Of a stretch of DNA of 37,826 nucleotides, positions 14,680 to 36,747 are shown piece after piece. Source of the DNA: Clostridia bacterium (GTDB lineage: Bacteria; Bacillota; Clostridia; Christensenellales; Aristaeellaceae); assembly GCA_017512905.1 (NCBI GenBank), contig JAFWEL010000112.1:1-37826 (forward strand), written 5' to 3'. The stretch's first letter is position 1. Each line of letters opens with the position of its first letter. The notes beneath the pieces were generated by a model. It was not told where the DNA came from. It did no database searches and saw only the letters and a list, made by a program, of their open reading frames with translations. Both the position numbers and the translations under genes were made by a program.

Positions 14680-14781
14680 ATTTTGTGCAAAGTGTAGAAA
14701 AAAACCGGACATGAATGGACATTCACATCCGGTTTTTGGTCGAGGTGACAGGATTTGAACCTGCGACCTTTGGGTCCCGAA
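14680..14781 (-). repeat. Left copy of a tRNA-Pro 3'-end direct repeat (putative attachment site)
   Basis: Bases 14737-14781 match the 3' 45 bases of the tRNA-Pro(CGG) gene at 36671-36715 with one mismatch (44/45), from the anticodon loop to the CCA. The match continues without gaps through the downstream terminator hairpin and ends at 14680 (partner 36614), with changes mainly in the hairpin. The 5' half of the tRNA is missing, so this is a fragment and not a working gene. Such 3' fragments mark the far end of elements integrated in tRNA genes. Confidence 0.85.
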
Positions 14782-14975
14782 ATCCGAACAAACGTTCGTT
14801 TTTGTCATCTCCAGACAGGAAAAGGCAGCCTTTTTCCTCGCTTTTTGTCTCAGACGGACAGGGGGTGACAGATTCGGTTGTAGGATAGTTGCATGCTATT
14901 TGGAGGTGCAGCCGGGCGCTTTTGCAAGAACGGCGTTGAGAAAATGCACCGAAGATCGGTGTTTACAACGAATCA
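14782..14975. other. Intergenic stretch with terminator of the hsd operon
   Basis: No gene is visible. An AGGAAAAGGC/GCCTTTTTCCT inverted repeat lies at about 14817-14839. On the minus strand, CACCGA-TCT-TCGGTG (14961-14947) followed by CATTTTCTC is a plausible terminator just after hsdR. Confidence 0.5.
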
Positions 14976-17900
14976 TCAAGCATTTTCCTCAAAATTCTCC
15001 ACCTGCTCCATTACTTTCCGGAATACCTCCGGGCTATACTGCGGCGGATAACCGTTCTTTATCAAACAAACCTTGATATCGAATTTCAGCTGATCACGGA
15101 CAATCTGGTTGTTCAGCCAATCTGCGAACGAGGATTTTGTGTCAATGATCTCCTTGATCTTCTTTGCCAGCGCCTTACATTTGTCATTCACCTTGATGCC
15201 GTTGACAACCTTATCCTCGCCATACTCAAAATCGTATTGATCCCTCAGTGCCATCAGAATATCATAGAATGCTTTTTCCTCAAATGTAAGACCGACCTTG
15301 CGGAAGCTCTTGCGGTCTGCATCCATATCCCTGAGGATTTGAAGGGCCTGCTCCGTTGCATTCCTGATAATCTCCTCGGAGGTTTCCTCCTGTGCGGCTC
15401 CGGCTTCCTCAGCAGTCAGGTGCTTCCTTCTTTCGTGATACTGATTGATGGTTTCCTCCAGCATCTCCTGGAATCGCTTTGCCGCCATCTGGTTGGTTTT
15501 GCTGTATTCGGTGATTTGCTTCCGAAGCATCTTTACCAGTAGTTCCAGCTTCGAGGCCGGCATTTTCACATCTGACAGCCGTTCATAGTATTCAGGGCTG
15601 AAAATGTCCTCCTGCTCGCCCTCGTCCAGCACGCTCTCAACCTTGTTGTACTTCAGCGCTTCCTCCACCATCCTGGAGACGTTGCGGTTCATGACATCGG
15701 CATCAATGTCACTGGTGCCGCTCATCTTGCGGACAAAGCCCGCAATCGCCATGAAGCACTGGGCCAGGGCGGATTCATCCTCGCCCAAATCCCCTGAGGG
15801 CTGGCAGATATCATAAGCGGCCCGCATTCTTTTCACGGTCTTCAAGAAATAGTCCTTAAACGGGACCTTGCTGACGCTCTTCCCGTTACGGCTTTCCGTA
15901 TGCAGTTCCTGCGTGGAAACGAAAACATACTCTGCGGCCTTTGCAAGCAACCTGTATCGAAGCACCGGGTCTCCTTCCGGATCAAGGAACGGTTTAAGGT
16001 CATACCCCACAAACAGCTGATTGAGGATAATGAGCTCCTCTCTGAACGCATTGGTGGCCTGCTCGATATCATCCTTGGATGGCGCGACAGAATTATCACC
16101 GCCATATATTTTCACTGCTTCGCGCATGTTGTCGCGGATGCCGATATAGTCAACGATAACACCGTACTCCTTGCCCGGATACTTCCGGTTGACACGACTG
16201 ATGGTCTGGATCAGCATATGCTTCTTCAAGGGCTTATCGTTGTACATATAGGTGAGACAGGGCACGTCGAAACCTGTGATCCACATATCCACAACAATGA
16301 CAATCCGGAAGTTCGATTTCTCCTGTTTGAATGCAGCGTCAAGATCATCTGAGCGCTTATCGTTTTTCATGCCGCCCAGATAGTCGTACATTTCCTTTTT
16401 ATCATTCTTTCCGACGCTCGCCACCATCGCCATAAAGGGCATGGGCTTCAATTCGCGGAGTTCCTCCTCCGTGGCCACAACCCCGTCAGGCGTTTTTTTC
16501 TCCTCGAACCATTCCGGATAGTTCTTTTTGAAGATGGTGAGCAGCGTGTATGCTATCGTCCTGTTGGAGCATACAACCATCGCCTTCTGCACCCGGTCAG
16601 GATCATTGGCACATGCCGCAGTATAGTGGTCGTGGATATCAGCGGCCAAGCGCTCCAGACGGGAAGGCTCGCTCAGGATGATCTCCATGGAGCTCATGGC
16701 CTTCTTGCTGGCCTCGATATCCTCCTCCGTTGCGCCATCATCCGCGCACCGCTTGTAGTAGGCCTCGATCTGCCTGACCTTCTCCTGATCCAGCAGCACC
16801 TTTGTAATCCGGGGATGATACATGATGGAAACGGTCAAGCCATCCGCCACAGCCTGATCCATCGTATACCGGTCGATCTCCTGCCCGAAGGTCTGATAGG
16901 TTTCATCAATCGGAGTGCCGGTGAAACCGACAAACGTCGCGTGCGGAAGCGCCTCCCGAAGCACCTTTGCATAGGGCTTGGAAACCATGGCCTTCATATT
17001 CGCGTCGGCATCCTTGCTGAATTTGATCCGCTTGGCGTGGTCCAGCTGCGTCCGGTGCGCCTCATCGGAGAAGCAGATGATGTTGGCCCGCTCGTTGATC
17101 AGGCCAATCTTATCATCTTCCCTGTCGCAGAACTTCTGGATGGTGCAGATATAAAACCCACCGCTTTCACGTGCGCCGAGTTCCTGCCTGAGGACATTCC
17201 TGTTTGGAACCACCATCACCTCGCCGAGGTTCAGGAATTCCTTGCTCTTGGTGAACAGCTTTGATCCTTGTTTCTGGAGATCATCCCTGTCAACGATCAT
17301 GATGATCGTGGGCGAACCGATCTCCGGCACATCCGTACAGCGCAGGGCCAGCTGCCGGGCCAGGAACGCCATGGTATAGGTCTTGCCGCAGCCCGTGGCT
17401 CCGAAGTAGGTGCCGCCCTTGCCGCTCCTGGTAACGACGGATTGGATAATGCTCTGTTTCAGCAGCCGGGAGGCAAAGAACTGGGGATAGCGGCAGACGA
17501 TTTCCCGCTGCTCGCTGTCGTACTGGCTGTCCTGAAAATAGATGTAATCCCGGAATATCTCCAGGAAGCGCGCAGGGCTGTATACGCCCTTGATCATCGT
17601 CTGCATTTCCTCGAAGGGAAGCGTGGAGACCCGGTCTCCGTCATCCACGCGCCGCCAAGCATAAAAGTGTTCATAGGGCGTGCGGACGGTGCCCAACCGC
17701 GTCTTGACGCCATCGGAGATGCAGGCCAGGGGACAATAGTGCAGCAGATGCGGGATATCCCGCCAGTAACGGATATTGATCTGCTCCCAGGCGGCATAGA
17801 TGGTCGCATTCTTGTCCGCCGGGTTTTTCAGCTCCATCACGCACATCGGCAGGCCGTTGACGAACAGGAGGATATCCGGCCTTCGATTGACCGTCTGGCC

Positions 17901-18305
17901 GTTGTTGGTGTATTCCACGGTAAACTGATTGACGGCCCGGAAGATATTGTTCTTCGGTTCATCGAAGTCAATCAGCGCCACCATCCGCGCCAATCCGCTT
18001 TGCGGGACAAACTGTATGCCGTTCACCATCCAGTTATACACCTTATGTAAAACGGCAAAGTCGCTCTCCGCACCCACCAGACGCACGGTATCCATGATCT
18101 GCCGGATTTCATCGACAGTCAGGTCCGGATTCGATTTACTCAGGAATTGCTCCAGATCGTCTACATAGAGCACATCCCGCTTGGAGGCGCGCACAATGCT
18201 GTTCCCGGACAGATATTGCCAGCCTTCCTTTTCCAGGTAGTCCAGGAAGGCGTATTCAAATTCCCATTCGCAATAGCGGCCGTTGTAGTTCTGTAGCTTT
18301 GGCAT
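14976..18305 (-). CDS. hsdR: Type I restriction enzyme R subunit (HsdR)
   Basis: The product is 1109 residues, within the HsdR range. The ATG at 18305 has GGAGG eight bases upstream; an in-frame GTG 15 bases earlier overlaps that site. The N-terminal nuclease domain shows the PD-(D/E)xK pattern, RRPDILLFV...VMELKNPADK at about 140-165. The translocase follows: Walker A in FGATGCGKTYTMAF (about 302-309), the DEAH box (CFSDEAHRTQ), motif III VGFTGTPIDE, and a second RecA-like domain with ITGFDVPCLTYMYND and QTISRVNR. A helical C-terminal region should contact HsdM. It works with HsdM and HsdS to cut DNA lacking host methylation. It is the last gene of a five-gene operon. Confidence 0.95.
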   Translation of the reverse strand: MPKLQNYNGRYCEWEFEYAFLDYLEKEGWQYLSGNSIVRASKRDVLYVDDLEQFLSKSNPDLTVDEIRQIMDTVRLVGAESDFAVLHKVYNWMVNGIQFVPQSGLARMVALIDFDEPKNNIFRAVNQFTVEYTNNGQTVNRRPDILLFVNGLPMCVMELKNPADKNATIYAAWEQINIRYWRDIPHLLHYCPLACISDGVKTRLGTVRTPYEHFYAWRRVDDGDRVSTLPFEEMQTMIKGVYSPARFLEIFRDYIYFQDSQYDSEQREIVCRYPQFFASRLLKQSIIQSVVTRSGKGGTYFGATGCGKTYTMAFLARQLALRCTDVPEIGSPTIIMIVDRDDLQKQGSKLFTKSKEFLNLGEVMVVPNRNVLRQELGARESGGFYICTIQKFCDREDDKIGLINERANIICFSDEAHRTQLDHAKRIKFSKDADANMKAMVSKPYAKVLREALPHATFVGFTGTPIDETYQTFGQEIDRYTMDQAVADGLTVSIMYHPRITKVLLDQEKVRQIEAYYKRCADDGATEEDIEASKKAMSSMEIILSEPSRLERLAADIHDHYTAACANDPDRVQKAMVVCSNRTIAYTLLTIFKKNYPEWFEEKKTPDGVVATEEELRELKPMPFMAMVASVGKNDKKEMYDYLGGMKNDKRSDDLDAAFKQEKSNFRIVIVVDMWITGFDVPCLTYMYNDKPLKKHMLIQTISRVNRKYPGKEYGVIVDYIGIRDNMREAVKIYGGDNSVAPSKDDIEQATNAFREELIILNQLFVGYDLKPFLDPEGDPVLRYRLLAKAAEYVFVSTQELHTESRNGKSVSKVPFKDYFLKTVKRMRAAYDICQPSGDLGEDESALAQCFMAIAGFVRKMSGTSDIDADVMNRNVSRMVEEALKYNKVESVLDEGEQEDIFSPEYYERLSDVKMPASKLELLVKMLRKQITEYSKTNQMAAKRFQEMLEETINQYHERRKHLTAEEAGAAQEETSEEIIRNATEQALQILRDMDADRKSFRKVGLTFEEKAFYDILMALRDQYDFEYGEDKVVNGIKVNDKCKALAKKIKEIIDTKSSFADWLNNQIVRDQLKFDIKVCLIKNGYPPQYSPEVFRKVMEQVENFEENA

Positions 18306-18355
18306 TGAAATGACCTCCACCTAATTCGTTTCGAGTTGTATTTCAATCTGACCAG

Positions 18356-19297
18356 TTAACCTTCGTCAATATTAATTTCGGTATAACCATCAGAGTTACT
18401 ATCCTTTTTCGAAGGTATCGCTGCCTTGCAACTCTCAAAGAACTCCTTTGTAAGTCTCCTTTTCTCCTCATCAGACAAACCTTCTGTTTCATTTATTCTT
18501 TTGATCTCTGCATCTATGAACATTTGAATGATAGCTTTTACCTGTGCGGTATCCAGTTCGCTTTTTGAAACTTGATTATCCTCAATCAAGGACTTTTTAT
18601 CATCCTTTAGAGGTTTCAATATATCAAGAAAAAGCATAGTGATTGTATTCGTCGAAAGAAAGAATGTACACCTTACGATATTCTGCGTCAGCACTTCATT
18701 CGGCAAATGGCTGAAATAGACGAGTGAAGACGAGAAAAGCAGCATAAATAGGTTTATAGTTAAATAAACCATATGTGTAAAGGTAGATTCCACTTCTTGA
18801 TTATAAGATCGTTTATCCATCATTAGTTGGAGCTTCTGTACGAAATCAGGATTCACAAGGTCTACGGGCTTTCTTTTCTTTAGATACTCAACGATAAGAA
18901 CATTCCAGACCAAGAACACAGTTAGTGATAATCCATAAATTGTCCACTCTATCGTGAGCACATCATTTATCTCTTCAGCAGTCCATACTGCTTCATTGGT
19001 TATTGACATTAACGCGAATACCAATATGAAATATCCTAATAACAACTTGGGATAATTATTGCTCAGCCAAAAACCAAATCTGGTTTCCTTGATTCTATGT
19101 ATTCTATTACAAAAATAGATAATAGTTAGTATCGCAGCTAATAGGGCGATACATGCCGCGAACAATAGAGCTGTCTTCAATTCAATCTCGATAAAATTCC
19201 GCATACATTGAACGACTGAAAAAATGAGATAAAACGTCATAATAGCCGCCAATAATCCAATGGCGGAATAAATCAATATATCCTTTCGTTTCTTCAT
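18356..19297 (-). CDS. Unknown multi-pass membrane protein inside the hsd operon
   Basis: The product is 313 residues. Its ATG overlaps the hsdS stop codon (ATGA), so it is translated with hsdS; hsdR starts 50 bases after its stop. Six hydrophobic segments are visible at about 6-29, 39-63, 82-100, 113-139, 173-195 and 205-228. A charged helical tail (229-313) with SEEKRRLTKEFFESCK-type composition follows (read in the protein as SDEEKRRLTKEFF). I recognise no catalytic motif and no known family. The gene is clearly more AT-rich than most of the window. Its place between hsdS and hsdR suggests a partner or an inserted accessory defence gene, but no function can be assigned. Confidence 0.85.
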   Translation of the reverse strand: MKKRKDILIYSAIGLLAAIMTFYLIFSVVQCMRNFIEIELKTALLFAACIALLAAILTIIYFCNRIHRIKETRFGFWLSNNYPKLLLGYFILVFALMSITNEAVWTAEEINDVLTIEWTIYGLSLTVFLVWNVLIVEYLKKRKPVDLVNPDFVQKLQLMMDKRSYNQEVESTFTHMVYLTINLFMLLFSSSLVYFSHLPNEVLTQNIVRCTFFLSTNTITMLFLDILKPLKDDKKSLIEDNQVSKSELDTAQVKAIIQMFIDAEIKRINETEGLSDEEKRRLTKEFFESCKAAIPSKKDSNSDGYTEINIDEG

Positions 19298-20421
19298 TCC
19301 TTCTCGCCTTCCTCCAGCGATCCCTTAATCAGTATCGGACAGATATCTTTGATTTGGGCTTTGAGTCTTTCATTGATTGCTTTTCTATCAGTATATACAC
19401 TATAGATTTCAGTAATTGCCTTCTGTAGTTCTATATCAGGGCAGGGAATGTTTATTTCAAAGAAGCGTTTCTTCTCCATTCCACTTCTTACGCTGTTATC
19501 ACACAAAAACCACGCATAACGATCCGTCTCATTTCTTGATAACCACATCAGAATATACTCGGGTAGGGCTATATCTGTTTTTGATTCAAAAACAGTATAT
19601 GCAGGTGATACAATCATATCGCTATCACTTGTGTTGAGTGCAACCGGGACAACGACATCCCTCCCGACATGCAACAAATTACAAGCAAATTGCATCGGCT
19701 TAACCAGTTTATACTTAGTCAAATCTTCTCCACTAGTAACAGATAGAATAAAGAGCTTTTCTTTATTAACACCATGAACAGCAGTAATGATGCCATTTTC
19801 ATTACGAGCATCAGATTCTATGGCCAGACTGCTTAACGCATATTTCTTTACATTATGCTTAATTCCCTCTAATTCAGCGTCAAAGGTAAACTTCAAGTCC
19901 TCCAACCCATACTCATACGCCTTCTGATTGGCGACCATGGCTTTATATAGTTCCACATATTTCTGCTGAATCGAAAGCGATGGCAAAGACAAATCAACCG
20001 CACAAATATCCTCCCAGTTATAGAACTCTGTGGAACTGCCCCATGAATTGGTTATGACATAGCGATCAAATTCCGGACGATTAAAGTACATGTAGAGCCA
20101 TTCTGCCATGAGAAACCGTTCCGATGTTTCCTTAATCCGGAAAACGACATAGTCCTCTGTGCAGATTATCGGGTTATCGCCGTCATTATACGCAATACTG
20201 AATTTACTGCCATTCCTGGAGGTGCGATGATTAAAGACAAATTCACCGGGATACACGATCTGAAACTTTGTAAGATCGCGCCCATTGATATCCGCTTTTG
20301 TGAGCATGAGCAATTTCAGGTTATTCACGCCCCGAACATCGTCCGGGCCGAACTGAAGATCGTCATTCGTCACTTCCCGGAGTTCAATGTGTTCTCCGAG
20401 TTTGCATTTATTCAAGGCCAT
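19294..20421 (-). CDS. hsdS: Type I restriction-modification specificity subunit (HsdS)
   Basis: The product is 375 residues. The ATG at 20421 (protein starts MALNKCKLGEHIELREV) overlaps the end of hsdM by 14 bases; a longer frame runs antisense-free but inside hsdM and is rejected. Two half-subunits can be seen, each a target-recognition region followed by a helical spacer: about 1-190 ending in LPSLSIQQKYVELYKAM, and about 200-375 ending in NIPCPDIELQKAITEIYSVY. Those spacer segments are the classic conserved regions of HsdS. The recognised DNA sequence cannot be predicted by eye. The gene is AT-rich relative to hsdM, as often seen for exchanged specificity genes. Confidence 0.9.
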   Translation of the reverse strand: MALNKCKLGEHIELREVTNDDLQFGPDDVRGVNNLKLLMLTKADINGRDLTKFQIVYPGEFVFNHRTSRNGSKFSIAYNDGDNPIICTEDYVVFRIKETSERFLMAEWLYMYFNRPEFDRYVITNSWGSSTEFYNWEDICAVDLSLPSLSIQQKYVELYKAMVANQKAYEYGLEDLKFTFDAELEGIKHNVKKYALSSLAIESDARNENGIITAVHGVNKEKLFILSVTSGEDLTKYKLVKPMQFACNLLHVGRDVVVPVALNTSDSDMIVSPAYTVFESKTDIALPEYILMWLSRNETDRYAWFLCDNSVRSGMEKKRFFEINIPCPDIELQKAITEIYSVYTDRKAINERLKAQIKDICPILIKGSLEEGEKE

Positions 20422-22012
20422 ACCCAATCCCCCTGAACGCTTCCTCCAGCATCTTCTGAGACTGCTTTTCCTGCGCCAGTACATCACGCATCTCCTGTTG
20501 GATACGCTGCATCTCCGCCGGGAAGTCGATTTCCAGATCGTGGTCGATAAACTCAATATACTTACTGGGGATGAGACTCCAGCCGTTTCGCTCGATATCA
20601 TCCTTGCTAACGCTGCAGTATAGCTCCGGCACGGCGTACCGTGCGCCGTCCGTCCCTTCGTTCTGCCAGGTATGATAGATCATGGCGGCGCGCTCAATCT
20701 GCTTATCGTCCAGCATCACTTTTTTCTTGCTCTCATTCTTGACCGGGTTCTCCGTCCATGTGCGCAGATCCATGAACAGAATCTCGTGCTCGCGGTTGCG
20801 CAGCTTCCTGCCATGATAATCGCCGCCCCTTTTGTTCTGATTCAGAATCCAGAGGGTGACGCTGATGTCCGTCGTGATAAACAGTTCACGGGGCAGGATG
20901 ATGATGGCTTCAACCTTATCATTCTCAATCAGCTTTTGACGGATCGTCAGGGTATCGCTGTCGCCCAGCGCGCCGTTGGCCAGCAGGAATCCTGCCACGC
21001 CCTCCAGCGGTTTCATGTGGGAGAGGATGTGTAAAATCCAGGCATAGTTGGCGTTGCTCTCCGGCGGGGTCGTGTAATCCGCCCAGCGGGCATCATTTTT
21101 CAGGCTCGATTCATACCACCCCTTGAGGTTGAAAGGAGGGTTGGCCATGGTGTATAAAAAGTAGAGTCCTTTGTGCTGGTCGTTGGTGAAGGAGGAATCG
21201 TAGGTCTCTCCCAGATTGTGGCTGATGCCGCGCAAGGCCAGGTTCATCTTAGCCAGTCGATAAGTGGCGGCGTCCTTCTCCTGACCATAGACGTTGATCC
21301 TGCTGATATCGCCCATCTTCTTCGCGACGAGTTCAGCACTCTGGATGAACATACCACCAGAACCACAGCACGGATCGTACAGCGTGCCGTCGAAGGGTTC
21401 GATCATGGTTGCGATCAGCTGAACCACGTCGTGGGGCGTGTAATATTCGCCCTCCTCCTTGGTCGCGTTCACGGCAAATTCCTTGAGGAAGTATTCGTAT
21501 ACACGACCAATGAGGTCCTTCTCCTCGCCGAAGGCCTTATGGCTGATTTTATTGACCTCGTCAACCAACTGCTTTATATCGTTGGGAGCCAGATTCCTCG
21601 TTGTAAACGTGCCCTCCACAAAGCAGCCCTTTAACCGCTTGTCGGTAGAGGCAAGGGTAGCAAGAGCCGTATCCAGCGCAACATTCAGGGTCGGCGCGGG
21701 CTTGGTAATGATCTCAGACCAGCGCGCTTCCTTGGGCAGATTATAGGTGCCGTCCGTAAAAGTGGCATCATCGAAAAAAGCGGCCCGGATGTTTTCATCG
21801 TCCGGATCAAGGCCCTGCTCGATCAGGCTCTTCCGGAGATTCGCAATGCCGTCATCATATTTTTCTCCGATAAAGCGCAGGAAAACGAGCGTGAGCATCA
21901 TATCACGCTTTTCAAAGAATGACCCGGAGTTGCGGGCCTTCCGCAGTATATCCCGGCACTTAAACAGTATGGAATCCAGATTGATCTTTTCTTCGGCCTT
22001 TTTCTTCGCCAT
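20408..22012 (-). CDS. hsdM: Type I restriction-modification DNA methyltransferase subunit (HsdM)
   Basis: The product is 534 residues. AAGGAAGG precedes the ATG. The N-terminal HsdM helical domain (about 10-160) is followed by the N6-adenine methyltransferase core: motif I DPCCGSGGMF at 213-222 (SAM binding) and the catalytic NPPF at 291-294. The C-terminal helical tail should contact HsdS. With HsdS it methylates the host's recognition sites; with HsdR it forms the restriction complex. It follows the DUF4268 gene by 45 bases and overlaps hsdS. Confidence 0.96.
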   Translation of the reverse strand: MAKKKAEEKINLDSILFKCRDILRKARNSGSFFEKRDMMLTLVFLRFIGEKYDDGIANLRKSLIEQGLDPDDENIRAAFFDDATFTDGTYNLPKEARWSEIITKPAPTLNVALDTALATLASTDKRLKGCFVEGTFTTRNLAPNDIKQLVDEVNKISHKAFGEEKDLIGRVYEYFLKEFAVNATKEEGEYYTPHDVVQLIATMIEPFDGTLYDPCCGSGGMFIQSAELVAKKMGDISRINVYGQEKDAATYRLAKMNLALRGISHNLGETYDSSFTNDQHKGLYFLYTMANPPFNLKGWYESSLKNDARWADYTTPPESNANYAWILHILSHMKPLEGVAGFLLANGALGDSDTLTIRQKLIENDKVEAIIILPRELFITTDISVTLWILNQNKRGGDYHGRKLRNREHEILFMDLRTWTENPVKNESKKKVMLDDKQIERAAMIYHTWQNEGTDGARYAVPELYCSVSKDDIERNGWSLIPSKYIEFIDHDLEIDFPAEMQRIQQEMRDVLAQEKQSQKMLEEAFRGIGYGLE

Positions 22013-22984: not shown

Positions 22985-23035
22985 GGAAAGCACTCCTCAT
23001 AACGCAATCTAAACAATTCATCATTCCCCTCTTAC

Positions 23036-28218: not shown

Positions 28219-28238
28219 TTGCGAATGAGGGATTTGAC

Positions 28239-29018
28239 ATGAACGCACAGGTTTGGATGGGCATACTGCTGCCCTTTTTGGGAACCAGCCTCGGCGCGGC
28301 GATGGTGTTCGTGCTGAAGGATCAGATCTCCGACGGCGTTCAGCGGATGCTCACCGGCTTTGCCGCGGGCGTGATGGTGGCGGCCTCCTTCTGGAGTTTG
28401 CTGCAGCCCGCGCTGGAAGGTGCGGAGCAAATGGGAAAGCTGTCTTTCATTCCCGCCGCCGTGGGATTTCTGGTGGGCATTGGCTTTTTGTTGCTGCTGG
28501 ACAACGTGACGCCCCACATGCACATGGATGAGCAGTCCGAGGGCCCGAAAAGCAGCCTTAAGCGCACAACAAAGCTGATCCTGGCGGTGACGCTGCACAA
28601 CATCCCCGAGGGCATGGCCGTGGGCGTGGTCTACGCGGGCTGGGTCGCGGGAGAGACGGGTGTGAGCCAAGCGGCGGCCTTCGCGCTGGCGCTGGGCATC
28701 GCGCTGCAGAACTTTCCGGAGGGGGCCATCGTGTCCATGCCCCTGCGGGCGGCGGGCATGCCGAAGGGGAAGACCTTCTGGTACGGCGTGCTGTCCGGCG
28801 TCGTGGAGCCCATCGCGGCGCTGATCACCATCGCCGCCGCCAGCGCGGTGGTGTCCATACTCCCCTACCTGCTGGCCTTTGCCGCGGGCGCGATGTTTTA
28901 CGTGGTGGTGGAGGAGCTGATCCCGGAGATGTCAGAGGGCGAGCACTCCAACGTGGGCACCGTGGCCTTCGCGCTGGGCTTTGTATTGATGATGGTGCTG
29001 GACGTGGCACTGGGATAG
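28239..29018 (+). CDS. ZIP-family metal transporter
   Basis: The product is 259 residues with seven or eight membrane helices. The metal-binding signatures are in helices IV and V: HNIPEG at 120-125 and QNFPEG at 157-162. A histidine/acidic loop (TPHMHMDEQSEGP, about 91-103) lies between helices III and IV, as is normal for ZIPs. It probably imports zinc, iron or manganese. A DtxR/MntR-type regulator is encoded two genes downstream, and peroxide genes upstream, which fits manganese or zinc supply under oxidative stress (inference). Confidence 0.92.
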   Translation: MNAQVWMGILLPFLGTSLGAAMVFVLKDQISDGVQRMLTGFAAGVMVAASFWSLLQPALEGAEQMGKLSFIPAAVGFLVGIGFLLLLDNVTPHMHMDEQSEGPKSSLKRTTKLILAVTLHNIPEGMAVGVVYAGWVAGETGVSQAAAFALALGIALQNFPEGAIVSMPLRAAGMPKGKTFWYGVLSGVVEPIAALITIAAASAVVSILPYLLAFAAGAMFYVVVEELIPEMSEGEHSNVGTVAFALGFVLMMVLDVALG

Positions 29019-29041
29019 AACAACGACAAGGAGAGTTTACC

Positions 29042-30514
29042 ATGCTTAAGGATTATGAATTCTGGTTTGTGGTGGGCAGTCAGTTCCTGTACGGCCCCGA
29101 GGTGCTTGAGACCGTGGCGACCCGCGCCCAGGAGATGACCGACAAGCTGAACGCCTCCGGCAACCTGCCCTGCAAGCTGGTGTATAAGGTAACCGCCAAG
29201 ACCAACAAAGAGATCACCGACGTGGTGCGCGAGGCCAACTACGACCCGAAGTGCGCGGGCATCATCACCTGGTGCCACACGTTCAGCCCGTCCAAGATGT
29301 GGATCAACGGCTTTGCGAACCTGCAGAAGCCCTATTGCCACTTCGCCACCCAGTACAACCGCTCCATCCCCAACGAAGAGATCGACATGGACTTCATGAA
29401 CCTGAACCAGGCCGCCCACGGCGACCGGGAGCACGGCTTCATCGCGGCCCGGCTGCGGATGCCCCGGAAGGTCATCGCCGGCTACTGGGAGGATGAGGAC
29501 GTCCAGAAGCGGATCGGCAGCTGGATGCGCGCCGCGGTGGGCGTGGCGTTCTCCAAGGGCCTCAAGGTCATGCGCTTCGGCGACAACATGCGCGAGGTGG
29601 CCGTCACCGAGGGCGACAAGGTGGAGGCGCAGATCAAGCTAGGCTGGCAGGTGAACACCTGGCCGGTGGGCAAGCTGGTCAAGACCATGGACGAGGTCAC
29701 CGAGGCGGAGATCGACGCGCTGATGGAGACCTACTGCCGCGAGTACACCCTGAACACCGACGACATCGCCACCGTGCGCTATCAGGCCCGGGAAGAGATC
29801 GCCATGAAGAAGATGCTGGACGCCGAGGGCTGCATGGCCTTTTCCAACACCTTCCAGGATCTCTACGGCATGAAGCAGCTGCCCGGCCTGGCCAGCCAGC
29901 ACCTGATGGCCCAGGGCTATGGCTACGGCGGTGAGGGCGACTGGAAGGTCAGCGCCATGACCGCCATCATGAAGGCCATGAGCGAGGGTATGACCGGCGG
30001 CACCGCCTTCATGGAGGACTACACCTACAACCTGGAGCCGGACGCGAAGTACAGCCTGGGCGCGCACATGCTGGAGGTCTGCCCCAGCGTGGCGGCGGAG
30101 AAGCCCCGCATCGAGGTGCATCCGCTGGGCATCGGCGACCGCGAGCCCCCGGCCCGGCTGGTGTTCGAGGGACACGAAGGCCCCGGCATCGTGGTGAGCC
30201 TCATTGACATGGGCGGCAGGCTTCGTCTGATCGTGCAGGACATCCAGTGCGTCAAGCCCATACTGCCCATGCCGAACCTGCCCGTGGCCCGGGTCATGTG
30301 GAAGGCCTTCCCGGACCTGACCACCGGCGTGGAGTGCTGGATCGCCGCGGGCGGCGCGCACCACACCGTGCTTTCCTACGACGTGACCGCCGAGCAGATG
30401 AAGGACTGGGCGCGGATGATGGACATCGAGTTCGTGCACATCACGAAGGACACCACCGTCGAGGCGCTGGAGCAGCAGCTGTTCCTGAACGATTTGGCGT
30501 GGAAACTGAAATAA
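29042..30514 (+). CDS. araA: L-arabinose isomerase
   Basis: The product is 490 residues, the family length. The start FWFVVGSQFLYG is characteristic. The metal and catalytic residues are in place: Glu298 (GYGYGGEGDWK), Glu325 (AFMEDYTY), His342 (SLGAHMLEVCP) and His440/441 (GGAHHTV). It converts L-arabinose to L-ribulose using manganese, and can accept D-galactose. No araB, araD, transporter or AraR is nearby, so it is an isolated sugar gene between a metal transporter and a metal-dependent regulator. AAGGAGAG precedes the ATG. Confidence 0.95.
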   Translation: MLKDYEFWFVVGSQFLYGPEVLETVATRAQEMTDKLNASGNLPCKLVYKVTAKTNKEITDVVREANYDPKCAGIITWCHTFSPSKMWINGFANLQKPYCHFATQYNRSIPNEEIDMDFMNLNQAAHGDREHGFIAARLRMPRKVIAGYWEDEDVQKRIGSWMRAAVGVAFSKGLKVMRFGDNMREVAVTEGDKVEAQIKLGWQVNTWPVGKLVKTMDEVTEAEIDALMETYCREYTLNTDDIATVRYQAREEIAMKKMLDAEGCMAFSNTFQDLYGMKQLPGLASQHLMAQGYGYGGEGDWKVSAMTAIMKAMSEGMTGGTAFMEDYTYNLEPDAKYSLGAHMLEVCPSVAAEKPRIEVHPLGIGDREPPARLVFEGHEGPGIVVSLIDMGGRLRLIVQDIQCVKPILPMPNLPVARVMWKAFPDLTTGVECWIAAGGAHHTVLSYDVTAEQMKDWARMMDIEFVHITKDTTVEALEQQLFLNDLAWKLK

Positions 30515-30565
30515 GAGAATTTAAATAAGATCGACGGAGCGGCGCAAATGCCCGGAGGGTTAATC

Positions 30566-30961
30566 ATGAAGCATCATTCAAGTAAGTCGTTGACGACTTC
30601 AAGCGAAAACTACTTGGAAGCCGTGCTGATGGTTCAGGAGAAGAAGGTCGTGGCGCGTTCCGTCGATCTGGCACAGAAGCTCGGCGTCAGCAAGCCCAGC
30701 GTCAGCGTGGCGGTACACGCGCTGGAGAATGAAGGCTATCTGATCATCGGCGATGACAAGGCGCTTCGCCTGACAGATGCCGGGAAGGCGATTGCCGAAG
30801 AGGTCTATGAGAAGCATCGCTTTTTCACAAAGGCGCTGATTCGGCTGGGCGTCGATCCCCGGATTGCGGAGGATGACGCATGTCGAATTGAGCATGATGT
30901 CAGCGAGGGAACCTTTTCCATCCTCAAGGCCTATGCACGCAGGTGTACGGGGGAGGTTTAA
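30566..30961 (+). CDS. DtxR/MntR-family metal-dependent regulator
   Basis: The product is 131 residues from the ATG at 30566 (CGGAGGG upstream). The winged helix covers about 8-70 (SSENYLEAVLMVQEKKVVAR, LGVSKPSVSVAVHALENEGY). The dimer and metal domain follows, with KHRFFTKALIRLGV and DACRIEHDVSEGTF, where the Glu-His pair supplies metal ligands. No SH3-like third domain is present, so it is a short form like MntR. Targets may include the ZIP transporter gene upstream. Confidence 0.88.
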   Translation: MKHHSSKSLTTSSENYLEAVLMVQEKKVVARSVDLAQKLGVSKPSVSVAVHALENEGYLIIGDDKALRLTDAGKAIAEEVYEKHRFFTKALIRLGVDPRIAEDDACRIEHDVSEGTFSILKAYARRCTGEV

Positions 30962-30988
30962 GCCAGTCGCTTTAGGAGGGGGATGAGA

Positions 30989-31438
30989 ATGGATCGGCAG
31001 GAAGATATGGAAACACGGGATGAATTGCGCAAACGCATTGGCGACCTTGCATGGGACGTGACCCAGAACGCGGCTACAGAGCGGGCTTTCGCCGGCGAAT
31101 ACGACGATTTCTTTGAAAGGGGCATCTATGTGGACGTGGTCAGCGGCGAGCCGCTGTTTACCTCGCTGGATAAATACGATTCCGGCTGCGGCTGGCCTGC
31201 CTTCACGCGCCCCATTACGGAGAATGCCGTCAGGGAGAAGAGGGATATGTCTCACTTCATGGTTCGCACCGAGGTGCGAAGCGCGGGAGCCGATTCCCAT
31301 CTGGGGCATGTGTTCAACGACGGCCCCGCCGAGCGCGGCGGTCTGCGCTACTGCATCAATTCCGCTGCGCTGCGCTTTATCCCCTTTGATGAGATGGAGA
31401 CCCAGGGCTATGGCGCGTATAAAGCGCTCTTTGAATAG
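30989..31438 (+). CDS. msrB: Peptide-methionine (R)-S-oxide reductase
   Basis: The product is 149 residues. The ATG at 30989 is preferred: AGGAGG is nine bases upstream, whereas the ATG at 30983 is too close to it. The catalytic Cys122 is in [13 protein letters not shown] and the recycling Cys67 in SGCGWPAF. The substrate loop [11 protein letters not shown] is intact. The CxxC zinc pairs of one MsrB subgroup are absent. It repairs R-methionine sulfoxide in oxidised proteins using thioredoxin. It fits the oxidative-stress run of genes. Confidence 0.96.
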
Positions 31439-31455
31439 CAAAGGAGGACTGCAAT

Positions 31456-32397
31456 ATGGAAATCAAGGCGGTTAAATTCAGAAAAGACGGGTTTTACACC
31501 CAGCCCTTCGCTTTCGGCGGAGAGGAGGGCATGGACAAGTTCGATCCCAACATCCGCTATCGCGGAAGTTTGCAAAATTACCTGATCGATACGGGGGACG
31601 AGGTCATCCTTTTGGATACCGGCTTCACCGATGCCGTGCCAGAGGAAGTGCCGGATGAAAAGGCTATGGGCTTCACGGGCTACGCCATCTCCGACTACAT
31701 GACCGCGTTCAAGACCATGGGCTATCAGCCGGAGCAGGTGACGAAGATACTGCTGACGCATCGGCACAGCGACCACTCAGGCAGCATTGGCCTGTTTCCC
31801 AACGCGAAGGTCTATGTGAACGCGGACGAACTGGGCGCGGAGGAATTGCAGGGCGTGGACAATCTTGTTCCGGTGAAGTACACCGACGGCCCCTACTATA
31901 ACTTCCCCGAAAGCCAGAAGATCATGGACGGGGTTTATATGGTCAGGGCGAAGGGCCATACTGTGGGCAACAGCGTCGTAATCATCGAAAAGGACGGCCT
32001 GTTCTACATGTTCCATGCAGATATCACCTATGTGGACGAGGCTCTGTATGAGAACAAGGTGTCCGTCGTGTTCGACGATCTGTCTGAATCCCGCGTGACG
32101 CTGGATCGGGTGCGGGAATTTGTGCGCAGCCATCCCACCGTCTACATGGGCACCCACACGCCCCAGGGCTATGAAAACCTGGAGGCCAACCGAGTGATCG
32201 ACCTGGACAATCCGGTGCCGACCGTGTATGCCGATGTGGACTTCTCCGCCGCTCAGGGCACGGGCAAGTACGTCTGCTCCATCTGCGGCTACGTCTACGA
32301 TCCTGCCGAGCACGACGGCGTGGCCTTTGAGGACCTGCCCGAGGACTGGCGCTGCCCGCGATGCAAGCAACCCAAGGAGAAGTTTAACAGAGCGTGA
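31456..32397 (+). CDS. Metallo-beta-lactamase fold protein fused to a rubredoxin
   Basis: The product is 313 residues; AAAGGAGG precedes the ATG. Residues 1-255 form a metallo-beta-lactamase fold with the HxHxDH motif (His102, His104, Asp106, His107) and further ligands His168 (AKGHTVGN), Asp189 (FHADITY) and His234 (MGTHTPQ). Residues 270-313 are a complete rubredoxin: CSIC (274, 277) and CPRC (300, 303). The flavodoxin domain of classical flavo-di-iron enzymes is absent, and the HRHSDH motif is of the zinc hydrolase/lactonase type, not the HxExD type of those oxygen reductases. Separate flavodoxin-like proteins are encoded nearby. The reaction is unknown; a redox-linked hydrolase or a reductase is possible. 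Confidence 0.9.
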
Positions 32398-32454
32398 ACA
32401 GGGAACGACAGCTATAATCCACGCCTGTGGAAGAGAATAAAGGAGGAATACATC

Positions 32455-32967
32455 ATGAAGATCACCATACTGAACGGAAGCCCCAGGAAGCAGAACACCG
32501 CCGCGATGGTCGAGGCCTTTGCCGAGGGCGCGAAGGCCGCGGGGCATGAGGTCGAGACCATCCAGGTCGGCAAGCTGAAGATCAACGGCTGTCTTGCCTG
32601 CGAATACTGTCATGGCAAGGGCGAGGGCAAGTGCGTCCAGAAGGACGACATGGAGAAGGTCATGCCCGCCTATCAGGACTGCGACATGATCGTGTTCGCC
32701 TCCCCCATCTACTACTTCGACATGACGGCCCAGCTCTCCGCCGCGATCCAGAGGGTCTATGCCATCGGCAAGCCCCCGAAGGCGACGAAGGCCGCGCTGC
32801 TGCTGAGCTCCGCGTCTCCGAATCCCTTTGAGGGCGCGATCGCGACCTACAGGAACATGCTCGCCTTCATGGGCATTGAGGACAAGGGCGTCATCACCGC
32901 CGCGGGCGATGAGAACGGCTCCGAAGCCAAGCTTGCGGAGATCCGCGAATTCGCCAAGGCGCTGTAA
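32455..32967 (+). CDS. NADPH-dependent FMN reductase / flavodoxin-like protein
   Basis: The product is 170 residues with AAAGGAGGA upstream. The FMN phosphate loop is at the start (LNGSPRKQNTAAMVEAF). A cysteine pair in INGCLACEYCHGKGEGKC suggests an iron-sulfur flavoprotein-like or disulfide site. FASPIYYFDMTAQL is the second FMN contact. It likely reduces quinones, iron or flavin with NAD(P)H. It lies 57 bases after the MBL-rubredoxin gene and may supply electrons to it (inference). Confidence 0.9.
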   Translation: MKITILNGSPRKQNTAAMVEAFAEGAKAAGHEVETIQVGKLKINGCLACEYCHGKGEGKCVQKDDMEKVMPAYQDCDMIVFASPIYYFDMTAQLSAAIQRVYAIGKPPKATKAALLLSSASPNPFEGAIATYRNMLAFMGIEDKGVITAAGDENGSEAKLAEIREFAKAL

Positions 32968-32991
32968 CCCTCCAGAAAGAATGCAGACAAG

Positions 32992-33030
32992 CCATGACCA
33001 CAGGTGCCTTAAGAACATCTGTGGTCATGG
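32992..33030 (+). promoter_or_regulatory. Perfect 12-bp inverted repeat between FMN reductase and rrf2
   Basis: CCATGACCACAG (32992-33003) and CTGTGGTCATGG (33019-33030) are exact inverses with a 15-base loop. It may be a terminator for the upstream gene or an operator for the Rrf2 regulator. No T tract follows directly. Confidence 0.6.
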
Positions 33031-33071
33031 GGCTATTATGCAGAACAATGACGGGAATTGGAGGGGTGATA

Positions 33072-33512
33072 ATTCAGATATCCAGCAGGTTCACAGTCGC
33101 GCTGCACATCTTCACCTGTGTGGATGTCTTCAAGGATGATTACAAGGTGACCAGCGAATTCCTTGCGGGCAGCATCAACACCAATCCCGTCATTATCAGA
33201 AACATACTCTCTCAGTTGAGAAAAGCCGGACTGATCACCGTTGCCAGAGGCACGGGCGGCATCACCGTCAATCGTCCCCTCAATGAAATCACCTTCTTCG
33301 ACGTCTATCAGGCCATCGAGCCGGTGGAGGGTGGAGACCTGTTCCGCTTCCATGAAGCGCCGAACCCTGCCTGCCCGGTGGGCCGCAACATCCACGCATT
33401 GCTGGACGACAAACTGAAAACCATCCAGAACGCGATGGAGGATGAGATGCGGAGGTATACCTTGGCAGACCTGAGAACGGACATGCAGGAACTCTTAGCC
33501 AAAGAAGAATAA
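33072..33512 (+). CDS. Rrf2-family regulator, apparently starting at ATT
   Basis: The product is 146 residues from 33072. Rrf2 proteins start M-x-ISSRFTVAxHI; here the equivalent residue is encoded by ATT, and GGAGG (33060-33064) lies seven bases before it. The nearest normal starts, GTG 33066 (one base after the site) and ATG 33048 (no site), are poorer. The winged helix is at about 1-65 (SEFLAGSINTNPVIIRNILS, LRKAGLITVARGTGGITVN). A single Cys in NPACPVGRNI lies where iron-sulfur Rrf2 proteins have three; so it more likely senses thiols or redox by another means. It probably controls the flanking redox genes. Confidence 0.8.
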   Translation: MQISSRFTVALHIFTCVDVFKDDYKVTSEFLAGSINTNPVIIRNILSQLRKAGLITVARGTGGITVNRPLNEITFFDVYQAIEPVEGGDLFRFHEAPNPACPVGRNIHALLDDKLKTIQNAMEDEMRRYTLADLRTDMQELLAKEE

Positions 33513-33521
33513 GCAGTTGGC

Positions 33522-33551
33522 CTCCGATGCGCCTGTCATCGGAGTTTTTTT
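33522..33551 (+). terminator. Terminator after rrf2
   Basis: CTCCGATG (33522-33529), loop, CATCGGAG (33537-33544) and seven T residues, nine bases after the stop. Confidence 0.9.
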
Positions 33552-33795
33552 GAGAGAAGCAGCTAATAAACCATTATCGGTGACACCCCGTCATCGTTCC
33601 GCACCACGCGGCACTTTGATGGGGTGTCGCCTCTTTTCTCCCCACGTGAGCCCAACGTTTGCCCTGTCGCGGGCTTTCTGATCCAGTCCGACACGTGGCC
33701 ATCCCAGCGCCGAGCCCACTACAGGGGCCGACGTGGGGGCAACTTGCAAAGGAAACGCAGACGTGACGAGACCTTTGAAGTTTCCTCTTTAACTC
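33552..33795. other. Intergenic region between rrf2 and hxlR
   Basis: No convincing gene. GACACCCC (33582-33589) and GGGGTGTC (33621-33628) form a hairpin around 33580-33630. Both strands are partly open with basic, low-complexity frames, which may be remnants of an old repeat. hxlR ends at 33796 on the other strand. Confidence 0.4.
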
Positions 33796-34170
33796 TCACA
33801 ATAACCTCAATTCATACTGAATCTGTTCCTCTCCCCAGGCATGAATCGCCAGCAGCACCGGTGTGAGCGCTTCGCCTCGTTTACTGAGCGTGTACTCCGT
33901 CCTGGGCGGCACAATGGGGTACATTTTTCTTACGATCAGCCCGTCCTCCTCCAGTTCACGCAGCGCCTTGGAAAGCATGACATCGCTGATGCCGGGAATG
34001 TCCCGCCGCAGCTCACTGAATCGAAGCGGGCGCTTCTCATCTGCCAGGTGCCAGAGGATCGGGATCTTCCAGCGCTGCCCAATGATCGAAAGCACATACC
34101 GCACTGGACAGACCTCCTCGCCGCGCTTCAGCATTTCCTTCATTTCGATGTGTTCCTGACTGCTGCTCAT
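33796..34170 (-). CDS. HxlR-family redox-type regulator
   Basis: The product is 124 residues from the ATG at 34170 (GGAGG five bases upstream). The HxlR core is clear: VCPVRYVLSIIGQRWKIPIL, LRFSELRRDIPGISDVMLSK, then ALRELEEDGLIVRKMY and PRTEYTLSKRGEAL. The single N-terminal cysteine (EEVCPVRY) is at the position that senses quinones, aldehydes or disulfide stress in relatives such as YodB and HypR. It is divergent from the flavodoxin-like/nitroreductase genes, which are its likely targets. Confidence 0.92.
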   Translation of the reverse strand: MSSSQEHIEMKEMLKRGEEVCPVRYVLSIIGQRWKIPILWHLADEKRPLRFSELRRDIPGISDVMLSKALRELEEDGLIVRKMYPIVPPRTEYTLSKRGEALTPVLLAIHAWGEEQIQYELRLL

Positions 34171-34181
34171 GACTGCCTCCA

Positions 34182-34201
34182 TACTAAGAAAAATATTAGT
34201 A
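34182..34201. promoter_or_regulatory. Putative HxlR operator
   Basis: TACTAA (34182-34187) and TTAGTA (34196-34201) are inverse, with an AT-rich eight-base spacer. It lies between the hxlR start and the promoter of the divergent gene, where a regulator could control both. Confidence 0.6.
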
Positions 34202-34202
34202 C

Positions 34203-34231
34203 TTGTTTATGTTTTATCTGTTTGGTATAAT
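34203..34231 (+). promoter_or_regulatory. Promoter of the flavodoxin-like/nitroreductase cluster
   Basis: TTGTTT (34203-34208), a 17-base spacer and TATAAT (34226-34231), directly next to the putative operator. Confidence 0.7.
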
Positions 34232-34278
34232 AGCAGATGTCAGGATAAAACGCAAGTTCTTTTTCGGAGGTAGAGAAG

Positions 34279-35007
34279 ATGAAGGTTATTGCGATCAACG
34301 GTTCTCCCCGCAGGAGGTGGAACACCGCCCAGCTGTGCCAGGCCGCGCTGGAAGGGGCGGCAGCCGCGGGCGCTGAGACTGAGCTCATTCACCTGGAAAC
34401 CATGAAATTCAAGGGCTGCATGAGCTGCTATGCCTGCCATAGCAAGAAGAAATACGACACGAAAGTCTGTTATTACAAGGATGAGCTGACCGAAACGCTG
34501 AACAAGTGCATCGAGGCCGACGCCATCATCATCGGCACCCCGATCTATTACGGCTTCGCCACCGGCGACGTGCGGGCATTCATGGAGCGGCTGATGTTTC
34601 CAATTGACACCTACGAGGTGGACAGCGAGGGCTATCGGCCCATCAAGCTGGACAGGATCATCCCTACGGCCATGATCTACACCATGAACGCCAGCGAGCC
34701 CTTCCTCAGGGGAAACACCGCCCTGGCCATGAATGAGAGCGAGCTGCGCCGGATGTTCGGATATTCCGAGAGCTATTATGCCTATGATACCTGCCAGTTC
34801 AACAACTATGACCTTTACGCCGCCAACCTGTTCAACGCCGAGCACAAATACGAGCGCCGGGAGAAGCAGTTCCCCATCGACCTGGAAAACTGCCGCCAGC
34901 TGGGTGCGCGCCTGGTAGAAAAGGCGAAGGAGGCCCAGGCGGGCACGCTGGTGCGGGAGCGCCTGCGCCTGCCGGAGGAATTCCTGAAGGAAATGCACAT
35001 CATCTGA
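34279..35007 (+). CDS. Flavodoxin-family FMN-dependent reductase
   Basis: The product is 242 residues; TCGGAGGT precedes the ATG. The start INGSPRRRWNTAQLCQ is the FMN phosphate loop. GCMSCYACHSKKKYD carries three cysteines, and IIGTPIYYGFATGDVRAFME is the second FMN contact. A C-terminal extension (about 180-242) is longer than in the 170-residue paralogue at 32455. It is the first gene of a three-gene unit under the HxlR-controlled promoter. It probably reduces quinones or other electrophiles. Confidence 0.88.
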   Translation: MKVIAINGSPRRRWNTAQLCQAALEGAAAAGAETELIHLETMKFKGCMSCYACHSKKKYDTKVCYYKDELTETLNKCIEADAIIIGTPIYYGFATGDVRAFMERLMFPIDTYEVDSEGYRPIKLDRIIPTAMIYTMNASEPFLRGNTALAMNESELRRMFGYSESYYAYDTCQFNNYDLYAANLFNAEHKYERREKQFPIDLENCRQLGARLVEKAKEAQAGTLVRERLRLPEEFLKEMHII

Positions 35008-35021
35008 GGAGGCTTTTCGAT

Positions 35022-35666
35022 ATGAAGATCGTTGCCGTGAACGGAGGCCCGCGCAAGGGCAAGAACACCGACCAGATGCTGGATGCCTTCATCGAAGGCG
35101 TAAAGAGCGCCGCGCCGGACGCGGAGGTGGAGGTCATTCGACTGTACGATTACGCCTTCAAGGGCTGCATGAGCTGCTTCGCCTGTCAGATGGAGAAGAA
35201 TCGGGACGACCTGGGATGCCGGATCAAGGATGAGGTTTCCGATCTGCTCAGGGACACCTTCCACGCGGACGGCATCGTGTTCGCCAGTCCCATCTACTAC
35301 TGCAACGTGTCTGCCCAGTTGCGGCTGTTCTGGGAGCGGCTGCAGTATCCCGGCCATTCGCCGAAGATGATACCCACCGCGCTGATCTACACCATGAACG
35401 CCAACGAAGAACAAACCGAGCAGTTCATGGGCAAGCCGCTGGAACTGAACAGCTGGTACCTGGAGGGGTGCTTCGGCGTGAAGCCGGAGGTCGTCTGTTC
35501 CTACGACACCTTCCAGTATAACGACAGCGAGCGCTTCAACGCCGCCTTCCGGGAGCCTGCCGCCCGCAAGAAGGCATTGCACGATCAGAAGTTTACAAGC
35601 GATCTGCGAAACGCCCGCGACGCCGGTACGCGGCTGGTTCATAAGATCAAGGAGGTACAGAAATGA
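35022..35666 (+). CDS. Flavodoxin-family FMN-dependent reductase (second paralogue)
   Basis: The product is 214 residues; GAGGAGG precedes the ATG and it starts 14 bases after the previous gene. It shares the layout of its neighbour: VNGGPRKGKNTDQMLD, FKGCMSCFACQMEKN and FASPIYYCNVSAQLRLFWE, then YTMNANEEQTEQFM. The two are evidently related by duplication but have diverged widely. Its last four bases overlap the nitroreductase start, so translation is coupled. Confidence 0.88.
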   Translation: MKIVAVNGGPRKGKNTDQMLDAFIEGVKSAAPDAEVEVIRLYDYAFKGCMSCFACQMEKNRDDLGCRIKDEVSDLLRDTFHADGIVFASPIYYCNVSAQLRLFWERLQYPGHSPKMIPTALIYTMNANEEQTEQFMGKPLELNSWYLEGCFGVKPEVVCSYDTFQYNDSERFNAAFREPAARKKALHDQKFTSDLRNARDAGTRLVHKIKEVQK

Positions 35667-36181
35667 GCTTTATGGATTTGTGCCGGGAACGGTATTCCGT
35701 TCGGCAATTCGACCCGAAACCTGTGGAAGATGAAAAGATCAGCCAGATTCTTGAGGCGGGACGCATTGCTCCGACAGCATGCAATTATCAGCCCCAGAGG
35801 GTCTATGTGGTCAAGAGTGAAGAGGCCCGCGCAAAGCTGTCCACTGTGACGCGCATGACCTATGGCGCTCCCGTCGTTCTCATGGTGTGCTACGACAAGG
35901 ACAAGAGTTGGAAGAACACGCCCCAGACCTTTGGCGAGGACTACGATGGCGGTGAGATGGATGCCTGCATCGTCGGAACGCAGATGATGTACATGGCGAC
36001 AGAGCTTGGCCTCGGCACGCTGTGGGCGAGGGGTTTCAATGCCACGCAGATTCATGACGTGATGGGGCTGCCGGAGAACGTCTGCGTCAGTTTTCTTCTG
36101 GATGTGGGCTATCCGGCGGAAGGCTCAGTGAATCACCATACCCCAAGAAAAGCCATTGGGGAAATGGTCGTTGAATTGTAA
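35663..36181 (+). CDS. Nitroreductase family protein
   Basis: The product is 172 residues and starts inside the stop of the upstream gene (ATGA), with GGAGG upstream. The FMN-binding start RERYSVRQFDPKPVEDEKIS, then RIAPTACNYQPQRVYVVKS is typical. The C-terminal FMN contact MATELGLGTLWARGF and LPENVCVSFLLDVGYPAEG are present. It reduces nitro or quinone compounds using NAD(P)H. With the two flavodoxin-like proteins and HxlR it forms an electrophile or quinone detoxification unit. Confidence 0.93.
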   Translation: MSFMDLCRERYSVRQFDPKPVEDEKISQILEAGRIAPTACNYQPQRVYVVKSEEARAKLSTVTRMTYGAPVVLMVCYDKDKSWKNTPQTFGEDYDGGEMDACIVGTQMMYMATELGLGTLWARGFNATQIHDVMGLPENVCVSFLLDVGYPAEGSVNHHTPRKAIGEMVVEL

Positions 36182-36338: not shown

Positions 36339-36370
36339 GCAGACCTGCGATTCAATCATCGCAGGTCTGC
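36339..36370. terminator. Terminator-like hairpin closing the redox cluster
   Basis: GCAGACCTGCGAT (36339-36351) and ATCGCAGGTCTGC (36358-36370) are exact inverses, 13 pairs with a six-base loop. Only scattered T residues follow. Confidence 0.65.
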
Positions 36371-36613
36371 TCCTATGTTACTTTATCCGTTATTTGGTTA
36401 TCGCTTTATTCGACCCTTTAGCCCGATGCCAAAATGAGCAATAAACCGTGATTGTCGTATTCCAAAAAAGGGATAACGGCCTCTTGGCGGCAGCCAAAAT
36501 GTCCGACCAAAACCGGTTCTGTCTCGGAGACCGGATATCATGTAACTCTATCAAACAATATCCGTTGCAATCCGGTTGCATCCGAAATGTCCACTATCCG
36601 TTAAAATCGGGTA
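36371..36613. other. Non-coding region beside the right tRNA-Pro repeat, with ATCCG-type direct repeats
   Basis: No gene is seen. Short direct repeats occur at about 36569-36604: ATCCGTTGCA, ATCCGGTTGCA, ATCCGAAATG, and CTATCCGTTAAA. Repeats of this kind next to a tRNA integration site could be recombinase arm sites, or may simply be local duplication. Confidence 0.35.
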
Positions 36614-36715
36614 ATTTTGTGCAAAGGGTAGAAAAAAGCCGGACAAGAAAGGACTTTCTTGCCCGGTTTTTGGTCGAGGTGACAGGATTTGAACCTGCGA
36701 CCTTTTGGTCCCGAA
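36614..36715 (-). repeat. Right copy of the tRNA-Pro 3'-end direct repeat (putative attachment site)
   Basis: It is aligned without gaps to 14680-14781 (constant offset 21,934). It consists of the 3' half of the intact tRNA-Pro gene, its terminator hairpin (CCGGGCAAGAAAG/CTTTCTTGTCCGG with T residues on the minus strand) and the ATTTTGTGCAAAG flank. Changes between copies are concentrated in the hairpin. Confidence 0.85.
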
Positions 36716-36747
36716 CCAAACGCGCTACCAAACTGCGCTACACCTCG
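36671..36747 (-). tRNA. tRNA-Pro (anticodon CGG)
   Basis: 77 bases including encoded CCA. The acceptor stem CGAGGTG pairs with CACCTCG. The anticodon loop is TTCGGGA between TTTGG and CCAAA, giving CGG. The T arm has GGTTCAAATCC. It is followed seven bases upstream by tRNA-Thr on the same strand and ends in a terminator hairpin. Confidence 0.96.

Follow-up and report, generated by a model that had tools for sequence, protein, structure and literature searches.

A probable decayed composite island, with no visible integrase, at tRNA-Pro(CGG) in a Clostridia bacterium

The stretch analysed here (the window, 37,826 bp) makes up an entire contig in the draft genome of a Clostridia bacterium (209 contigs, 92.35% complete, 4.41% contamination). 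Its main feature is a segment with two kinds of cargo, a redox and metal cassette on the side of a tRNA-Pro(CGG) gene and, distal to it, a type I restriction-modification (RM) system, two PADLOC candidate families and HipBA. The distal half begins, on the minus strand, with hsdR for the restriction subunit (14976-18320), a gene for a 313-aa protein (18356-19297), hsdS for the specificity subunit (19294-20601) and hsdM for the methylase subunit (20408-22012); these are followed by a DUF4268 protein of candidate family PDC-S11 (22058-22993) and, by PADLOC, a protein of candidate family PDC-S18 (23061-23732), both also on the minus strand. The three hsd genes and the DUF4268 gene were recognised by both Pfam and PADLOC. 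The 313-aa protein belongs to no known family (no match in Pfam, PADLOC or PHROGs, and none convincing in the PDB), and its gene, within the RM operon between hsdS and hsdR, lies in the lowest-G+C part (0.398 over 18356-20601). On the plus strand, hipA (24202-25404, Pfam) is preceded by a probable HipB regulator (23988-24293), which has helix-turn-helix-type matches only and is named from its position. The redox half, likewise on the plus strand, opens with a cassette common to four genomes of the genus (G016, G008, G003 and G010; 25403-32974) that encodes a TetR regulator, a ferritin-like protein, a glutathione peroxidase, a ZIP transporter, araA, a DtxR-type regulator, MsrB, a metallo-lactamase/rubredoxin protein and a flavodoxin-like reductase, and continues with an Rrf2 regulator, an unknown 129-aa ORF, two flavodoxin-like reductases and a nitroreductase (32994-36181). 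This is the cargo of type I RM, HipBA, redox and metal genes that an earlier note, made from the sequence alone, had described, with the proviso that HipB is only probable. The composition of the segment is mosaic, shifting near 25.4 kb from a G+C of 0.494 in the defence half to 0.577 in the redox half, while that of the left flank is 0.608.

Some smaller features also deserve mention. A structured, hairpin-rich repeat at 33576-33746 (minus; fold z-score -3.23) has no Rfam family at the gathering threshold; it has 24 further matches in 11 other genomes of the genus and one in its own, and six of the 24 are on contigs with a tRNA-Pro site or fragment. The contig end (37660-37826) carries short tandem motifs, with repeated 'gaacagg' and 'ccctaaaggactaacttcgtgtcg' units, which are possibly the cause of the contig ending there. 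In the left flank, the long plus-strand ORFs at 3284-4030, 4094-6673 and 6722-8344 were considered and rejected as genes. They match no families, and the true genes are cysS, aspS and hisS on the minus strand; the second and third are very long shadow frames opposite aspS/cysS and hisS, respectively, that are misleading for ORF-based annotation. A genus search with the 859-aa plus-strand frame thus in effect traced aspS and cysS.

The segment is bracketed by a direct repeat whose copies (14680-14781 and 36614-36715, both minus strand) align without gaps over 102 bp and are identical at 92 positions (tRNA 3' half, 44/45; terminator part, 48/57); on recomputation the coordinates and the 44/45 agreed with the earlier note. 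ARAGORN makes a single tRNA-Pro(CGG) call, at 36671-36747 (minus; also matched by the Rfam tRNA model and the core pattern), next to a tRNA-Thr(CGT) at 36754-36829. This intact gene, with its 45-bp core at 36671-36715, is the likely integration target. The left copy of the core (14737-14781, minus) receives no tRNA call and is a displaced 3' half that runs from gene position 33, where the anticodon loop begins (the anticodon is 35-37), to CCA. Placed 3' of the intact tRNA and oriented like it, the fragment has the order and orientation that fit integration at the tRNA. A BLAST search of the same genome with a 134-bp tRNA-plus-terminator query found the left copy at E 3.4e-34 and only one other match, of 81%, on another contig. 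No third copy of the tRNA half is present inside the segment, where the best local alignment score was 24 compared with a mean of 22.7 and a maximum of 28 for 50 shuffles. Outside the fragment is a second terminator (14680-14736, minus), which resembles the right-arm type for 57 bp before homology ends. In a fold check both terminators form full hairpins despite nine base differences, and therefore look separately maintained rather than freshly duplicated. This bears on the earlier suggestion of an unusually long att site: the repeat does reach past the tRNA, but the block of identity is confined to the 45-bp tRNA half, and the further 57 bp may be read more simply as two diverged terminators of one arm type.

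As had been noted earlier, no integrase is visible. The genome has seven Phage_integrase matches, none of them on the window contig, and a tblastn comparison of the window with 14 integrase sequences from relatives, some of the sequences partial, gave only scattered weak matches, the best (E 0.009) lying inside cysS. Among the window ORFs scanned, there was no integrase, no primase and no other recombinase, and a Pfam scan of these ORFs revealed no conjugation or mobilization module.

Does this arrangement recur elsewhere? We searched 28 genomes of the genus, own genome included, for the 45-bp core, allowing three mismatches at most; all compared genomes are drafts in which many contigs end near tRNA-Pro. 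The core occurs at 37 places in 23 of the 28 genomes (absent from G002, G007, G011, G017 and G020). By their flanks, 20 of these places were classed as the tRNA site: ARAGORN calls an intact gene at 17 of them, the 5' half is damaged at two (G014 and G021), and a contig end cuts the remaining one (G008). The other 17, all examined with their flanks, are displaced fragments spread over 14 genomes, and 16 of them start on the same, first anticodon-loop base; the exception is a G013 copy with mismatches that matches one base further. Additional pieces comprise a G012 fragment with an 11-base gap and stubs of 24 bases (G025) and 23 bases (G026). In nine genomes, tyrosine integrases were found downstream of the tRNA or of a fragment, within 2 kb and directed toward it (11 integrases: two each in G003 and G025, one each in G004, G010, G018, G021, G023, G024 and G026); no adjacent integrase was seen in the examined stretches of 17 other genomes, not counting our own; for several of them the contig ends nearby. 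The integrases form three groups: A (49-100% identical), B (two sequences, 31%) and C (58-95%, including two partial G014 copies). In tblastx comparisons, the group A elements of G003, G010, G023 and G025 are alike over much of their compared length, and the site holds tandem arrangements in G025 and G003. With 16 of 17 fragments cut at one base and 11 integrases of three groups nearby, tRNA-Pro(CGG) is an integration hotspot in the genus, and the recurrence of same-base fragments and integrases at one tRNA bears out the earlier view of the repeat as the footprint of an integrated element. At least three integrase groups thus use one tRNA-Pro(CGG) base, recurrently through the genus, and defence and redox genes collect there. 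Two observations concern individual copies of the site. The group A integrases of G003:C243 and G004:C173 (L084, L088) are identical over 448 aa, as are the adjoining 600 bp, reflecting either recent transfer or bin contamination; and the tRNA-Pro(CGG) genes at L068:880-935 (G014) and L080:19498-19560 (G021) lack part of the 5' half and give no ARAGORN call.

The ends of the segment are also shared with other species. Just inside the left fragment, the distal arm (14782-14895, minus; about 114 bp) is nearly invariant in six species (the window, G021, G010, G006, G016 and G012), with longer homology in some. Further in, the sequence is mostly different among the six and the cargo differs, although G016 has a type I RM system at the same distal end as the window and homology to G012 extends into the last 26 codons of hsdR (24/26, 92%) before it ends. 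In a collection with one genome each for 84,980 species, perhaps not including our own genome, the exact distal-arm pattern gave five records, which match the five other genomes of the genus, and none in any other genus. With up to three mismatches, the arm was found among 250 family genomes (19 of the genus) in four of the genus, including our own, and, at three mismatches, in one of another genus; viral contigs gave no match to the pattern. The earlier note had proposed that a left fragment in genomes lacking the whole segment would speak against its reading. The distal arm and fragment do occur with other cargo in five other species, and this marks the left fragment as a shared element end. 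On the other side, the right, tRNA-proximal arm (36358-36670, minus) comprises the terminator hairpin and sequence common to G001, G008, G012, G014 and G016, the shared part covering 141-313 bp after the tRNA at 70-82% identity. Beyond an arm of the window type, G001 retains the C-terminal 26 aa of a group C integrase (92% to G014), some 355 bp from CCA; in G024 and G018, where the group C gene is whole, it ends 417 bp and 391 bp from CCA, respectively. The fullest view of a related element comes from G021, where one contig carries a damaged tRNA-Pro half and, 26.6 kb away, a fragment. The stretch between the two, of which ten proteins were scanned, encodes a group C integrase and a D5/DUF5906 primase-like protein, along with type I RM methylase and specificity proteins, McrBC, DUF1848 and a helicase that has a PLD nuclease-like domain. 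The distal arm of this element is that of the window; its right arm is a different one. Window-type right and distal arms occur together with an intact group C integrase in no single relative. Judged from these sequences, the window appears to hold both ends of a group C-type element without its integration module. Its conserved distal arm runs up to the boundary base shared by the fragments, and since the group C integrase is missing, we file it as a remnant rather than as a member of group C.

In the redox half, blocks within 25403-32974 match contigs of G016, G008, G003 and G010 at 89-95% DNA identity and in partly different order, with lower values for MsrB of G008 (78%) and the metallo-lactamase/rubredoxin protein of G016 and G008 (69%). 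At four-fold degenerate sites, identity to G016 and G008 reaches 83-91% for araA, ZIP, glutathione peroxidase and ferritin, compared with 67-76% for the core genes that could be used (three in G016, cysS alone in G008). The corresponding values for G003 are 93% for araA (half the gene) and 76% for cysS, and G010 shows no clear excess (76-83% vs 69-81% for core genes). By cysS, aspS and hisS, the closest kin among eight genomes compared are G023 and G013, and neither has an araA match. The four-fold identity above that of core genes and the absence of araA from the closest kin suggest that the redox half is probably a cassette shared horizontally between species. Plasmid and phage records gave five short matches (70-77%) in this half, one annotated as araA. 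The earlier note had also named redox genes at this place without the left fragment as an argument against an element; in the other genomes these genes were found on contigs without tRNA-Pro, never beside one.

An uninterrupted tRNA-Pro/VanW site, the empty counterpart suggested earlier, was not found in the genus genomes searched, which are drafts with many contigs ending near the tRNA. The cysS-to-rplA block of the window recurs in G023, G013, G018 and G011, with different sequence after rplA. For VanW, the best relative is in G018 (65%), and a VanW scan of named genomes confirmed none; on G018:C50, VanW occurs together with genes found outside the fragments in G021 and G014, a gene set that is at most a hint of the empty site. 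In G005, sequence from about 140 bp after the tRNA recurs outside the G014 fragment and beyond the G009 tRNA, so that G005 may represent an unoccupied site, though its flank differs from that of the window. A link between the G011 genes by rplA and the G027 genes by the fragment was considered and dropped, as the two share only YkuD and peptidoglycan-binding domains; VanW is unrelated to these genes.

We favour, with a probability of roughly 0.7, the reading that the segment is a decayed composite island, similar to a cis-mobilizable element (CIME) and the remnant of a tyrosine-integrase element at tRNA-Pro(CGG). The parent would have entered by site-specific recombination in the anticodon loop, a step supported by the common boundary base and by integrases at the same site in other genomes; its own 3' half would have rebuilt the tRNA and pushed the old one out to 14737-14781. 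We infer a parent of a genus-specific kind, with, from the tRNA outward, a terminator arm, a group C integrase, defence genes and the conserved distal arm, and possibly a primase-like gene after the integrase, as in the fuller relative G021. The integration module would then have been lost, presumably by deletion, and the redox cassette gained, in this or another order and either in one element or by collapse of two. No replacement integrase would have followed, leaving an island that is now non-autonomous and probably immobile. It may persist because it is free of recombinases, and RM and HipBA may help to retain it by selecting against its loss, as reported for a HipAB-carrying composite island (PMC8978831). 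Two results count against this reading: no empty site turned up in the draft genomes searched, and no one relative combines both window-type arms with an intact group C integrase. Of the three options in the earlier note, a decayed island, mobilisation in trans and tRNA duplication, we thus keep the first.

The strongest competitor specifies a collapse of tandem elements, in which one deletion took both the internal fragment and the integrase and joined a redox half from one element to a defence half from another. It would account for the composition shift between the halves and has precedents in the tandem arrays of G025 and G003 and in a group C integrase sequence of G014 about 8 kb beyond the tRNA; moreover, outside the left fragment a right-type arm is kept for no more than its first 57 bp, as if another element began there. 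We regard it as possible but doubtful, as no internal tRNA-half remnant is left and a single element with swapped modules fits the data equally. That the island is still mobile, its arms being recognised in trans or by accretion by the group C integrase of a co-resident element, is improbable. The two arms and the core show little sign of decay and the cargo varies among elements with the same distal arm, but the nearest group C integrase match in this genome (92% complete) is a 99-aa stretch on contig C207 (55% identical) with four stops rather than an intact gene, which leaves mobilisation in trans unsupported. A wider version seems just as improbable to us, namely a standing class of non-autonomous islands in the genus that keep the two arms, swap cargo such as defence and redox genes freely and make use of the group C integrases that other tRNA-Pro(CGG) elements carry, the conserved distal arm being the end that is recognised. 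Somewhat less probable again is that the redox half belongs to the native chromosome downstream of tRNA-Pro, the defence half alone being foreign: the redox half is nearer in G+C to the left flank than the defence half is, but araA is missing from the two closest kin and is closer at four-fold sites to G016, G008 and G003 than core genes are, and no second fragment separates the halves. A false join of unrelated DNA, through assembly or binning error, is very unlikely. It could be suspected from the draft state and contamination of the genome and from contigs of several relatives that stop at or just past tRNA-Pro, yet the repeat copies are not identical (10 differences in 102 bases), and tRNA and fragment share one contig in G021, G023, G025 and G003. 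Finally, segmental duplication of the tRNA end without an element, to which the inclusion of the terminator in the repeat might point, can practically be dismissed given a boundary base that is the same in other species rather than private to this genome, integrases at the site and a conserved inner arm.

The decayed island can be placed among known systems, although we found no paper that joins all the topics of tRNA-Pro islands in rumen metagenome-assembled genomes. That integration leaves tRNA fragments behind is well documented (PMC9897764). In Islander, whose att sites are anticodon-centred in 2083 of 3919 tRNA islands (PMC4383910), islands are recognised by an intact tRNA and a downstream 3' fragment of the same orientation 2-200 kb away; our locus has these, with the fragment correctly placed and oriented and the boundary in the anticodon loop. 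Islander as described there also requires an integrase ORF inside the island; as there is none here, its filter would reject the locus, and we do not file it as an active Islander-type island. The composite island CGI48 of Shewanella likewise carries HipAB in a tRNA gene (tRNA-Trp); it differs in that it is reported to excise with an integrase and an excisionase (PMC8978831); in the window, retention by HipBA is presumed. Also comparable are the ssrA islands of Dehalococcoides, which form arrays at one RNA gene, some of them without an integration module, and have conserved repeat-adjacent sequence; the target there is a tmRNA gene and the enzyme a serine recombinase, as opposed to tRNA-Pro and tyrosine integrases (PMC3146451). 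The nearest likeness is with the CIMEs described in Streptococcus salivarius, att-bracketed cargo without recombination genes, at hotspots that also hold tandem elements; the same source refers to 215 CIMEs in S. agalactiae, located at tRNA-Lys(CTT) (PMC7563491). By sequence, the segment has att-type repeats at both ends and, among the ORFs scanned, neither recombination genes nor a conjugation or mobilization module. CIMEs are defined there as derived from ICEs or IMEs (PMC7563491); the parent of our island may have been an ICE, an IME or a satellite, and its fuller relative G021 has an integrase and a D5-type primase. The conserved arms give exact coordinates for the element ends, and the locus, taken singly, is most likely a decayed island of a well-known type: another att-bracketed, anticodon-centred island without recombination genes.
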